This document shows positions 15,828-20,981 of a DNA stretch of 32,815 nucleotides, piece after piece. A program made the position numbers and the translations under genes. Each line of letters opens with the position of its first letter. Position 1 is the stretch's first letter. Source of the stretch: Actinomycetota bacterium (GTDB lineage: Bacteria > Actinomycetota > Actinomycetes > Nanopelagicales > Nanopelagicaceae); assembly GCA_010032125.1 (NCBI GenBank), contig RHAU01000002.1:1-32815 (forward strand). Reading direction: 5' to 3'. Below the pieces are notes generated by a model. The model did not search any database and was not told where the DNA came from. It was given only the letters and a program-made list of their open reading frames with translations.

Positions 15828-16232
15828 TTAGTGATGTGAGGACGAAGAAGGACGCTCGTACTCGAGCACAAAACCCAAGACCGAGACCAAAAGTGCACCA
15901 ACAGCAATTAGCGTAAGCCACCACCCAATGATTAATCCGACTCCCGCCGCTGTAGCTGATAGCGCAACCGGAAGTGGCCACCATGAATGAGGACTAAAGA
16001 AACCAAGTTCACCCGCGCCATCAGCAATCTCTGCCTGGAGATTATCTTCTGGAAGGACCCCACCGGTTCGACGATTAATAAACCAGAAGTAATACCCGAT
16101 GATCAAAGCCAATCCCGCGCTCAGGGCAAGTGCCACAATTCCAACTGGTTCTTGTGCGAAATAGGCGTAAACGCCAGTGACGATTGCGTAAAAAATGAAG
16201 AGGAAGATAAAGAGACGGTAGCCAAATTTCAT
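15828..16232 (-). CDS. ctaF: cytochrome c oxidase subunit IV, actinobacterial type
   Basis: Position next to ctaD, TM pattern, FFSPHSWWPLPVALSA. Confidence 0.88.
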   Translation of the reverse strand: MKFGYRLFIFLFIFYAIVTGVYAYFAQEPVGIVALALSAGLALIIGYYFWFINRRTGGVLPEDNLQAEIADGAGELGFFSPHSWWPLPVALSATAAGVGLIIGWWLTLIAVGALLVSVLGFVLEYERPSSSSHH

Positions 16233-17896
16233 CAGTGAGATTCAGCTTTCTGCGCAAACTGCGGATGATGTAGATCAAAGGCTGGGCGTTCGGAACGAAT
16301 CTGTGGCATCGAATAGAAGTTATGACGAGGTGGTGGGCAACTCGTAGCCCACTCGAGGGAAGCGCCATAACCCCATGGATCATCCACTTCAACTTTCGGA
16401 GATTTCCGAGTAATCCATACGTTTATTGCGAAAGGAATCATCGAGATGGCCAGGAGCGTCGAACCAACCGTGGAAACCATATTCATAAATGTGAAACCAT
16501 CAGTTGCCAAGTAATCAGCGTAACGGCGTGGAAAACCTTTGATTCCTAACCAATGTTGAATGAGGAAGGTGGTGTGGAATCCGATAAAGAGCGTCCAGAA
16601 ATGGATTTTGCCCAAAGTTTCATTGAGCATCTTTCCGGTCATCTTGGGCCACCAGAAATAGAACCCGCCAAACATCGCAAATACCACGGTCCCAAAGAGA
16701 ACGTAGTGGAAATGTGCAACGACAAAGTACGAAGCCGAAACAGCGAAATCCAGCGGTGGGCTCGCCAAAATCACGCCGGTCAGTCCACCAAGCAAGAATG
16801 TAACTAAGAAACCAATAACCCAAATCATCGGTGTCTCAAAGGTGATGGAACCTCGCCACATCGTTCCAATCCAATTGAAGAATTTCACGCCAGTTGGAAC
16901 CGCGATCAGAAAGGTCATAAACGAAAAGAACGGAAGTAGGACTTGTCCTGAGGCATACATATGGTGGGCCCAAACAGCAACCGATAAAGCGGCGATTGCG
17001 ATTGTTGCTGCAATTAGCCCTTTATAACCGAAGACAGGCTTGCGGCTAAAGACGGGAAGAATCTCTGTTGCAATTCCAAAGAATGGAAGTGCCAAAATAT
17101 AAACCTCGGGATGGCCAAAGAACCAGAAAAGATGCTGCCATAACATTGCGCCACCATTTGCAGGTTCAAATACTTGTGCGCCAAATAAACGATCGGCCTC
17201 TAATCCCAGTAGCGCCGCAGCAAGAGGTGGGAAGGCGATGAGAACAAGTATTGAAGTAAGGAGTACGTTCCACGAGAAGATCGACATTCGGAACATCGTC
17301 ATTCCCGGTGCGCGCATGGTGAAAATCGTGGTCACAAAGTTCACGCCGCCAAGGATGGTGCCAAGTCCACCAATAGCTAATCCAACTATCCAGAGATCTG
17401 CGCCAATGCCTGGTGAATAAACGTCATTTGATAATGGCGCATACGCGGTCCAACCAAACGATGCCGCTCCACCGGGAGTCAGGAATCCTGTAAAGGCCAT
17501 AATCCCGCCAAAGAGATATAGCCAGTACGAAAGCATGTTCATTCGTGGGAAGGCAACGTCCGCGGCACCAATTTGCAACGGCATGATCACATTCGCAAAT
17601 CCAACAAAAAGTGGCGTTGCAAACATCAGCAGCATGATGGTTCCGTGCATTGTGAAAACTTGGTTGTACTGCTCTGCGCTCAAAAATTGCAATCCAGGTC
17701 GCGTGAGTTCTGCTCGAATTGCTAGTGCGAGTAAGCCAGCGATGAGAAACCAGGCAAATGATGTAATGAGGTAGAGGTAGCCAATCGTCTTATGGTCTGT
17801 TGTCGTCAACCACTTGACGATGAGGCGGCCTTTACTTAGAGGTTTTTTTGATGGCGGAAGAAAATCTTGGGTTGGCCTTGTGGCATATGTGGTCAT
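16232..17896 (-). CDS. ctaD: cytochrome c oxidase subunit I
   Basis: [56 protein letters not shown]. Start taken at 17896 (ATGA overlap with ctaC) instead of 18007. Confidence 0.96.
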
Positions 17897-18648
17897 GACG
17901 AAGCGCCCGCTTTCAATTTCTCGATGTATGCATCGTATTCGGCCGGAGTAACTACTTTGACGGTGAAGAGCATCTGTGAATGTTGCCGGCCGCAAAGAAT
18001 GTTGCAACGTCCTGGGTACTCTCCCAATTTCTCCGCGGTGAATTCCAGTTGATTTTCAACGCCAGGCAAGTTTTGGATTTGGATCATAAATGCAGGTATC
18101 CAAAATCCATGAACAACATCTGATGCTGTGATCTTGAATCGGACTTTCTCTCCTTGCGGAAGATAGAGAACCGGACGTTGGGCCGGTGTTCCAGTAACGG
18201 TTGCCTTCTCCCCCGCCTCTTTGTAGGTGAATTGCCACGACCATTGAATCGCATTAACTGTGATGTCGTGAATATCGGTGACCGATGCTGGAGTTTTGGC
18301 AACAATCTTGCTCTCAGCCTTCACCGTGTAGCCGAAAAGCACTGCGATGATGATGAATGGAATGACTGTGTATGCGATTTCTGTCGGTATGTTGTACTGG
18401 GTCTGTTTAGGAAACTCTTCATTCTTCTTTCTGTGAAATACCGCTGGCCAAAGAATGAGGACGAGAGTCAGCGCGCCTACGATCGCGGCCGCAAGCCACG
18501 CACCTTGCCAGAGTCCGAAAGCGTGTTTATTTACGCTGGAAACATCGCCCTGGAAACCAACACCGCTCAACTCTTCAGAGGAGCAGCCTGCAAGCAATGG
18601 AAGAAGCGACGCTGTCGCGAGTCCACACAATCGCTTTACCGCACGCAC
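17893..18648 (-). CDS. ctaC: cytochrome c oxidase subunit II (lipoprotein signal)
   Basis: Lipobox [17 protein letters not shown], CuA motif [12 protein letters not shown]. Confidence 0.95.
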
Positions 18649-18660
18649 GCACCAAGGATA
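18649..18660 (-). promoter_or_regulatory. putative -10 (TATCCT) 6 nt before ctaC GTG; leaderless
   Basis: Minus strand TATCCT + TGGTGC + GTG (18648). Confidence 0.5.
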
Positions 18661-18692
18661 GTCGTCGCTCGCGTGGGCACTTAGAGGTGAGG

Positions 18693-18705
18693 TACCGTTC
18701 CAAGG
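18693..18705 (+). promoter_or_regulatory. putative -10 (TACCGT) 7 nt before GTG 18706; leaderless
   Basis: TACCGT 18693-18698 + TCCAAGG + GTG. Confidence 0.4.
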
Positions 18706-19791
18706 GTGTCGCCCATCACAACAGAGTCTCGGGACTATCGAAGCGAAGAACCGTTACATCCCAAGGCGCAGGAACTTCTCAGTGAGTATTTCGCTGAGGG
18801 CTGGGTTGACCCTTCGAAGATGCATCATCAATCCCGACGCCTTGCAATCCTTTTCAATCAAGCGCGAGATGAGATAGCGGCAAACCTTGGAGTTTTCCCC
18901 GACGAAGTGGAATTTGTGGGCGAACTCGGTTTTGGTTTTTGGAGCGCGATTGCCGGTGTTCTTCAGAATTCACCGTCGAGATTCATTCACAGCACGATTG
19001 ATCGTCAAGTCATTCATGCTTTTGCGCGAACGTTGAAGAGTTCAGAGAAGATCGTGGAGCTGGCGCCGGACCAGAATGGAAGAATTGATTTCAATAGATC
19101 TGAGCCGGATGTTTCTGATTTCCTTGTGTGGCAAGGAGTTAATCGAGAGGTTGGCGTCGCTCAAGATCCGCTCGATGCAAAATTCAATCCCATTCTCTTT
19201 GCCGATATGACGGCGGCCACCCCATTCAATCCCCTCCCGCCCAAGTGGGATCTCGCACTCTTTGATCCGAGGAGTTTCCGTGGCCCGTCTGGGATTTCCA
19301 TCCTTACTATTTCGCGGAAAGGTCGTTGGACTTCTCCTTTGCCGCCGATGGATAAACGTCGGGTCTTTGGAAGTTTTTCGATTCCTCTCGCACTTGCTAC
19401 AGCGGTGTCGCTCAATGAAGCGGTGAAGGCACAAGATCATGACCGAGGGAAGATTGCCGAACTGAATCAATTCATCAGGAAAGAACTTCGCGATGCAATA
19501 ACCGGTCTGCACATGACCGACCCGAATTCAAAGGACGATCCGCGTTACGTCGCCATCGGAATTCAGGGCGTCGTTGCAGAAAAACTCTTGCAGCGAATGG
19601 AGAATTTTGGTTTTCTGATTGATGCGGGTTCAGCATGTGGCGCAGGAGCGCTCTCTCCTTCACATGTTCTTGATGCATTAGGTTGGGGAAATCTGGCACA
19701 CGTGAGATTGACGCTCAAGGCGAATCAGAGCCAAGAAGATGTTAAGAACGTTGTTACCGCTTTAAGCCAAGCGGTGAGTGCGGAACGCTAA
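18706..19791 (+). CDS. class V aminotransferase/cysteine desulfurase-fold protein lacking the PLP lysine
   Basis: NifS-like framework (VNREVGVAQD, ADMTAATP, FRGPSGIS, DAGSACGAGALSPSHVLDALGW), but the SxHKxxGPKG motif reads DPRSFRGPSG. Confidence 0.8.
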   Translation: MSPITTESRDYRSEEPLHPKAQELLSEYFAEGWVDPSKMHHQSRRLAILFNQARDEIAANLGVFPDEVEFVGELGFGFWSAIAGVLQNSPSRFIHSTIDRQVIHAFARTLKSSEKIVELAPDQNGRIDFNRSEPDVSDFLVWQGVNREVGVAQDPLDAKFNPILFADMTAATPFNPLPPKWDLALFDPRSFRGPSGISILTISRKGRWTSPLPPMDKRRVFGSFSIPLALATAVSLNEAVKAQDHDRGKIAELNQFIRKELRDAITGLHMTDPNSKDDPRYVAIGIQGVVAEKLLQRMENFGFLIDAGSACGAGALSPSHVLDALGWGNLAHVRLTLKANQSQEDVKNVVTALSQAVSAER

Positions 19792-19793
19792 AA

Positions 19794-19811
19794 AAGCAAT
19801 ACTCGTTGCTT
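19794..19811. terminator. weak candidate bidirectional hairpin between convergent genes
   Basis: AAGCAA-TACTCG-TTGCTT inverted repeat flanked by an A run; only a 6-bp AT-rich stem. Confidence 0.3.
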
Positions 19812-20154
19812 AGTTAAAGGAATCTCCACAAGCACAAGATCCTTTAGCGTTGGGGTTATCGATCGTGAAACCTTGTTTCTCTATAGTGTCCACGAAATCA
19901 ATGGTTGCGCCCATGAGGTAGGGAGTACTCATCTTGTCTGTGACAACTTTTACTGTGCCAAAAGTGACTACCGAGTCGCCATCGAGGGAACGATCATCAA
20001 AATAAAGTTGGTAACGAAGGCCAGAACAGCCGCCAGGTTGAACTGCGACTCGAAGACTGAGGTCGTCGCGACCTTCCTGAGCAAGAAGTGCAGCAACTTT
20101 GGTGGCTGCGCCATCAGTGAGTGCGATGCTCGTAGTCTGGGTATCAGATGACAT
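19810..20154 (-). CDS. erpA: A-type iron-sulfur cluster assembly/insertion protein
   Basis: VQPGGCSGLRYQLYFDD and GSCACGDSF cysteines; ATG 20154 preceded by GGAG. Confidence 0.92.
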   Translation of the reverse strand: MSSDTQTTSIALTDGAATKVAALLAQEGRDDLSLRVAVQPGGCSGLRYQLYFDDRSLDGDSVVTFGTVKVVTDKMSTPYLMGATIDFVDTIEKQGFTIDNPNAKGSCACGDSFN

Positions 20155-20245
20155 TCGTATCTCCGTTTTCAACTGTTGTGCTCCGTAGTCTATCCCTTCG
20201 CGCTGCTTTCCTCTCTTCAGCGGAGCCTTCCGCGCTTTTTTAAGA

Positions 20246-20257: not shown

Positions 20258-20981
20258 ATGTCCGGTTCGCTCTCTGACCTTCTTCTTCTTGGACGAGAGA
20301 GAGACCTGTCCAGTGAACGTGGTGTTTCTTGCACCGGTGAACTTCCGCCAGCCAGCGATCCCAATCTCGTTAATCGCGCACGTCTTGCAAGAGCCACCCT
20401 TGGAAATCGGGCAATGATCTTGGGACATCACTATCAACGTGACGAGGTGATTGAGTTTGCCGATATCACGGGAGATTCCTTTAAATTAGCGCAAGCTGCT
20501 GCAGAGAATCGCGACGCCGAATTTATTTTCTTCTGCGGGGTTCACTTCATGGCCGAAAGCGCTGACATTCTCACAAGTGCAGATCAGAAATAATGTTGAA
20601 GAAGTTCGTAAGCGCATCCCTCAAGTGAATGTTCTCGTCCACCCCGAATGTCAACACGATGTCGTTAAAGCAGCAGACCATGTCGGTAGCACGGAAGGCA
20701 TTATCAAGACGGTGACGGCCGCCCCTGCCGGAAGTGCATGGGCTATTGGAACCGAACTCAATTTAGTAAAGCGCCTAGCCGCTGCAAACCCAGATAAGAC
20801 CGTTGTCTTCCTTGATAAGACTGTCTGCTATTGCTCCACAATGAATCGGATTGATCTTCCACATCTTCTCTGGTCAATGGAGTCACTCGTTGCCGGCAGA
20901 TTGGTAAACCAGATCAAGGTTGATGAGAGAACAGCGAATTTTGCTCGACTTGCGCTGGAAAGAATGCTCGCCCTACCGTAG
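20258..20981 (+). pseudogene. nadA: quinolinate synthase with internal deletion and frameshift
   Basis: 5' ORF (20258-20593) ends ...[21 protein letters not shown]; 3' ORF (frame change near 20580-20593) continues [22 protein letters not shown]...DKTVCYCSTMNRIDLPHLLWSMESL...LERMLALP*. Central part of NadA is absent. Confidence 0.88.

Follow-up and report, generated by a model that had tools for sequence, protein, structure and literature searches.

A NifS-family protein lacking the PLP lysine is linked to nadA in Nanopelagicaceae and is a candidate NadA accessory

Cysteine desulfurase-fold proteins whose PLP lysine is missing include IscS of Archaeoglobus fulgidus (PDB 4hvk, 4eb5, 4r5f) and IscS1 of Methanosarcina acetivorans. 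In A. fulgidus IscS, replacement of this lysine by Asp is reported to leave the protein inactive, and its cysteine ligates the cluster on IscU (PMC7585200). Other NifS-type proteins are genetically tied to NadA or NAD biosynthesis: NadS of Corynebacterium glutamicum is described as a NifS-type desulfurase of the nadA operon (ndnR-nadA-nadC-nadS) involved in [4Fe-4S] assembly (PMC11995493), and NifS of Bacillus subtilis is placed with NAD biosynthesis in a published listing (PMC6522883). Loss of the lysine in a PLP-family protein that nevertheless persists is also found in LCB1 of serine palmitoyltransferase, which forms a heterodimer with LCB2.

We analysed a window of 32,815 nucleotides from a member of the Nanopelagicaceae, which are tiny freshwater Actinomycetota, and observe that it encodes a NifS-like protein with the A. 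fulgidus pattern of a replaced lysine and a kept cysteine. The archaeal proteins were studied with IscU, whereas the window protein is bacterial, has lost further PLP-site residues, and is linked to TusA, ErpA, and NadA, and the neighbours examined showed no evident IscU. Its gene shows both genetic linkage to and co-occurrence with NadA, as does NadS. However, the nadS-like genes near nadA in other actinomycetes lack ctaDC and erpA as neighbours and keep the GHK or AHK motif in all seven aligned, whereas the window gene is Lys-less and lies in a ctaDC-erpA-nadA locus (Table 1). In contrast to the LCB1 heterodimer, the window protein is known from its sequence and a predicted monomer fold.

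Table 1 Features of the window discussed in the text, with example TusA positions in other genomes.
Feature	Position	Strand	Basis
Lys-less NifS/IscS-family protein, 361 aa	18706..19791	+	ORF, translation, HMM, AF2, Foldseek
DPRSFRGPSG, former Schiff-base motif	19264..19293	+	phmmer alignment to PDB desulfurases
PLP Lys position, Ser190	codon 19273-19275	+	Lys in 0/69 family orthologues
Arg100 in place of PLP-stacking His; DRQ replaces EHS	19003..19005	+	orthologue alignment
Asn146, kept (IscS Asn155 equivalent)	19141..19143	+	69/69 family, 49/50 intact orthologues
Asp167, kept (pyridine-nitrogen Asp of IscS)	19204..19206	+	69/69 family orthologues
Cysteine loop SACGAGALSPSHVL with Cys311 (codon 19636-19638)	19630..19671	+	Cys in 69/69 family orthologues
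Arg334, kept (substrate-carboxylate Arg of IscS)	19705..19707	+	68/69 family orthologues
ctaD, next gene of conserved locus	16232..18007	-	tblastn synteny
ctaC, divergent upstream neighbour, defines conserved locus	17893..18648	-	tblastn synteny, nearly all loci
erpA, A-type Fe-S carrier, convergent neighbour	19810..20172	-	translation; near the gene across Actinomycetes
nadA (quinolinate synthase), about 425 bp missing inside, and frameshift	20258..20981	+	PF02445, relatives
Example TusA positions	G026:C2:389725-389913; G032:C1:951097-951273; L047 residues 444-514 (fused)		

The ORF is uninterrupted from its GTG start, which is backed by an N-terminal PIT conserved within the genus. HMM searches place the protein in the aminotransferase class V/NifS group, with Aminotran_5 (PF00266) above its cut-off and the NCBIfam NifS models far below their equivalog cut-offs. 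The AlphaFold2 model (pLDDT 93.1, pTM 0.91, from a 79-row alignment) has IscS and Nfs1 as top Foldseek matches, with TM-scores of 0.82-0.89 by query length, and together with PF00266 it indicates a fold-type I aminotransferase class V fold. Only residues 313-316, beside Cys311, fall below a pLDDT of 50, in keeping with a cysteine carried on a flexible loop.

The former Schiff-base motif DPRSFRGPSG aligns on TAHKMYGPKG of cysteine desulfurases in a phmmer search against PDB chains (E 9e-16). Against the residues with established roles in E. coli IscS, Lys206 is replaced by Ser190, His104 by Arg100, Gln183 by Ala170, Thr76 by Gly75, Ser203 by Asp187, and His205 by Arg189, so that the stacking His, the Gln, and the phosphate-binding Thr, Ser, and His are all missing along with the lysine; the equivalents of Asn155, Asp180, Cys328, and Arg356 are kept as N146, D167, C311, and R334. 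The Schiff-base lysine is absent from all 69 aligned Nanopelagicaceae orthologues, in every one of which Cys311 is present, a pattern well beyond chance. Position 100 is basic throughout (Arg in 59 of the 69, Lys in the other 10) and position 187 is Asp in 60. The comparison orthologues from other families have Lys, His100, and Cys in 50/50 each; they were picked as Lys-bearing, and the informative part is the retention of Cys together with the family-wide absence of Lys. These results bear out most of what a sequence-only reading of the window had proposed, namely an intact 361-aa ORF, a Schiff-base motif with Lys changed to Ser and His to Arg, a lost stacking His and Gln, and a preserved cysteine loop, Asp, and fold framework. 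The same reading had also given the gene its own promoter-like signal, which was not confirmed: no sigma-70-like site was found at positions 18400-20000, where shuffled sequences average 1.0.

A relocated PLP lysine, which that reading had named as evidence that would count against it, has no family-conserved candidate in the 69-orthologue alignment. The sole widely conserved family lysine (column 38, 56/69) corresponds to Arg in the intact orthologues. The losses recur in 69 orthologues drawn from numerous assemblies, some of them single-contig genomes, and we therefore reject an artefact of sequencing or assembly. We infer that the protein is a cysteine desulfurase-fold pseudoenzyme without most PLP-site residues, which would be PLP-independent in the Nanopelagicaceae.

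Orthology across the class is backed by synteny (tblastn), with ctaD-ctaC followed divergently by the NifS-like gene, which lies 57 bp from ctaC in the window. The locus conserved across Actinomycetes consists of ctaDC, the NifS-like gene, often tusA and a kinase, erpA, and often nadA; the usual extra gene before erpA is presumably sugar-kinase-like. The nadA of the window has PF02445 matches at 20402-20593 and 20586-20972 that cover only profile positions 9-70 and 173-295, and nadA of the relatives checked is longer by about 425-430 bp. This copy may have become a pseudogene recently, or the assembly may have collapsed there; the host assembly has 832 kb and is 68% complete.

In most Actinomycetes families, tusA lies directly 3' of the NifS-like gene or is fused to it. 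The fusion occurs in nearly all rows of family f19, where the orthologous gene also adjoins ctaC; one such 516-aa ORF (L047) combines an intact SAHKWGGP motif with a C-terminal TusA domain, whereas the window genus has neither. A separate tusA is found in most other Nanopelagicaceae genera, with the CPxP motif kept in 36/36. No tusA was found beside the gene in genera g1, g2, g3, g14, and g40. Those g1, g2, and g40 genomes that were searched in full contained no TusA at all, and none was found in the 68% complete window genome. Gene order across the class indicates that the ancestral unit takes in TusA. Both a SufS-type and an intact NifS-type desulfurase are encoded elsewhere in complete relatives, including both in a 99% complete member of the genus (G022), a point that the sequence-only reading had proposed to check for SufS.

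Most families other than the Nanopelagicaceae have an intact HK motif at the same locus. Lys-less orthologues occur in families f1, f22, f23, f29, f32, f33, f34, and f40 (one genome each for f22 and f23), two further f40 genomes likewise have an orthologue without the lysine, and the cysteine is kept in every aligned orthologue outside the Nanopelagicaceae too. A tree built on the full alignment unites the Lys-less rows in a single group (support 66/85). The active-site columns were then removed because they could draw Lys-less rows together, and the resulting tree, from which f29 and f32 are absent, has four changes (bootstrap 3-4), at least two of them forced by well-supported branches. A single origin of the loss, weakly supported with all columns, is therefore not retained; on the second tree the lysine was lost at least two times, and probably three to four times. 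The loss in the Nanopelagicaceae probably predates the family, since the lysine is absent from all of its aligned members and the cysteine loop is invariant.

Some individual loci show further peculiarities. In f29 (L252, L254), the loop reads GASC rather than GSAC and several pocket residues are gone, and the gene still lies between ctaC and tusA. Genome G035 contains two diverged Lys-less copies (L024, L035) on different contigs, each followed by tusA, which may reflect mixed bins or a true duplication. A frameshift that probably stems from a sequencing error interrupts the orthologue L039/L142 (G005:C2:8644-9701).

For close pairs, dN/dS of the NifS-like gene is 0.07-0.19, compared to about 0.00-0.07 for ctaC, ctaD, and erpA, counting usable estimates only, as some ctaD and erpA values are alignment artefacts and were ignored. 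The ratio of NifS-like to neighbour protein distance rises from 0.57 in intact lineages to 2.1 in Lys-less family lineages for CtaC, from 1.7 to 6.7 for CtaD, and from 2.2 to 4.5 for ErpA, so that, measured against its neighbours, the gene changes 2-4 times faster in the Nanopelagicaceae than in intact lineages. Taken together, these values suggest that the gene is constrained, yet freer than before. The interpretation given in the sequence-only reading is thus supported in part: its proposal of a non-catalytic paralogue under selection is supported by the family-wide lysine loss, the low dN/dS, the invariant cysteine loop, and the desulfurases encoded elsewhere.

Among the neighbours, nadA appears to be of greatest relevance to the NifS-like gene. 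We searched 151 Nanopelagicaceae genomes, by alignment for the NifS-like gene and with PF02445 for NadA. Among the 83 with a completeness of 90% or more, 75 have both, 8 have neither, and none is mixed. The corresponding Fisher p of 2.5e-11 overstates independence, because the gene-less genomes placed in the tree (six, all g40) form one clade, and the co-loss of the gene and nadA within the family is probably a single event. In these six of the 8 gene-less genomes, whose locus was read, ctaDC, the intervening gene, and erpA remain and nadA is absent there; the retention of erpA and the intervening gene indicates that the two genes were not lost in one contiguous deletion.

The same association is seen across the class, where NadA of 198 genomes falls into two groups by score, a longer type, which in the loci read has at least 383 residues between stops, and a short type, set by a PF02445 E below about 1e-105 (with G319, at 7e-103, added by its length and weak match). 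NadA was typed by score and in part by length, the E thresholds were chosen after the results, and the counts were made by hand and include related genomes. Among non-family genomes with the longer type, the search found the orthologue in 104/127 (E at most 1e-63); the remaining 23 comprise 5 in which synteny identifies it, 10 with a nadS-like NifS gene close to nadA, and 8 in which the locus is cut by contig ends or was not located. The orthologue was found in 0/39 short-type genomes searched, and 17 of the 18 short-type loci read, some of them short, have no NifS-like gene at all, the remaining one (G193) having only a distant SufS-like match. Families f9, f14, f17, and f33 contain both states, and NadA type and gene are matched in each. 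The exceptions, with the gene and no detected NadA, are two incomplete genomes (G057, G202) and G300, a 98% complete genome in which the gene lies close to the end of a contig.

NadA is oxygen-sensitive and needs a [4Fe-4S] cluster. NifS-type partners of NadA are known in NadS and B. subtilis NifS, and we infer that the gene is another: it would be the syntenic orthologue of a NifS-family protein that serves NadA in actinomycetes, a role like theirs. The window protein is probably a NadS-like NadA accessory turned PLP-independent pseudoenzyme, with a cysteine loop that would handle persulfide or cluster. Sulfur would be mobilised by a canonical desulfurase elsewhere in the genome, either SufS or an intact NifS, the flexible Cys311 loop could act as persulfide relay or transient cluster ligand, and the protein would load the NadA cluster, repair it, or protect it, perhaps with the help of ErpA and, in genera that keep it, of TusA. 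Such a pseudoenzyme would retain a delivery function after losing its desulfurase role. The nadA match, the TusA of the ancestral unit, and the archaeal Lys-less precedent are all points that the sequence-only reading had missed.

Several other explanations have to be weighed. The protein might be a pseudo-subunit that forms a heterodimer with an intact NifS- or SufS-type desulfurase of the same cell, thereby regulating or redirecting that enzyme. NifS enzymes are dimeric, and their active site lies close to the interface (PMC8300815), hLCB1, which lacks the PLP lysine, pairs with active hLCB2 (PMC3794620), and intact paralogues exist in complete relatives; however, these paralogues persist where the NifS-like gene was lost, and the gene tracks nadA rather than them, which makes such a pairing unlikely in our view. 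Slow decay, in which a redundant desulfurase-TusA relay is dismantled in streamlined genomes by loss of the lysine, then of TusA in several genera, then of the gene in part of g40, is a case that the sequence-only reading had raised as simple decay. It fits the faster evolution, the genera without adjacent or genome-wide TusA, and the disappearance of the entire gene from one g40 clade, but within the Nanopelagicaceae it is disfavoured by an omega of 0.07-0.19, by a lysine absent from all aligned members next to an invariant cysteine loop, and by a gene loss tied to that of nadA, so that we consider it improbable.

The two remaining explanations keep a chemistry of some kind. The pocket might bind another anionic ligand through Arg100, Arg334, and Asn146, with Cys311 serving new chemistry or sulfur or redox sensing, as the near-invariant residues specific to the family (basic 100, Asp 187) would suggest; this would leave the link with NadA to be explained, and we find it highly doubtful. 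Finally, the protein could still be a working desulfurase that holds PLP without the Schiff-base lysine, given that Asp167, Asn146, Arg334, and Cys311 are kept and that PLP can be seen in a published figure of 4EB5, the complex of A. fulgidus IscS with IscU (PMC9769115), although the lysine of that IscS is Asp (PMC7585200). Nevertheless, the loss extends to the stacking His and to the Thr, Ser, His, and Gln anchors, Asp occupies the phosphate-binding Ser position, and even A. fulgidus IscS is reported to be inactive (PMC7585200), all of which make a residual desulfurase very improbable.

Returning to the NadA accessory, the repeated loss of the lysine raises the more tentative possibility, which we put forward as a conjecture, that a PLP-free NifS-fold factor arose repeatedly in Actinomycetes for assembly or repair of the NadA [4Fe-4S] cluster, its cysteine serving as transient persulfide carrier or cluster ligand. 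The Lys-less IscS proteins that we found described are archaeal only (A. fulgidus, M. acetivorans), with no bacterial Lys-less desulfurase in the literature searched, whose coverage leaves out most subscription journals. A Lys-less NifS is found here throughout one bacterial family and in some members of others, with the cysteine kept in every case and the gene matched to NadA presence and type. "Cysteine desulfurase" annotations at the ctaDC-erpA-nadA locus may refer to proteins that are not desulfurases. If the proposed role is true, these bacteria would have split the making of persulfide from the handover of sulfur or clusters, two normally inseparable jobs of NifS, and would offer a natural system for testing client delivery without persulfide production.
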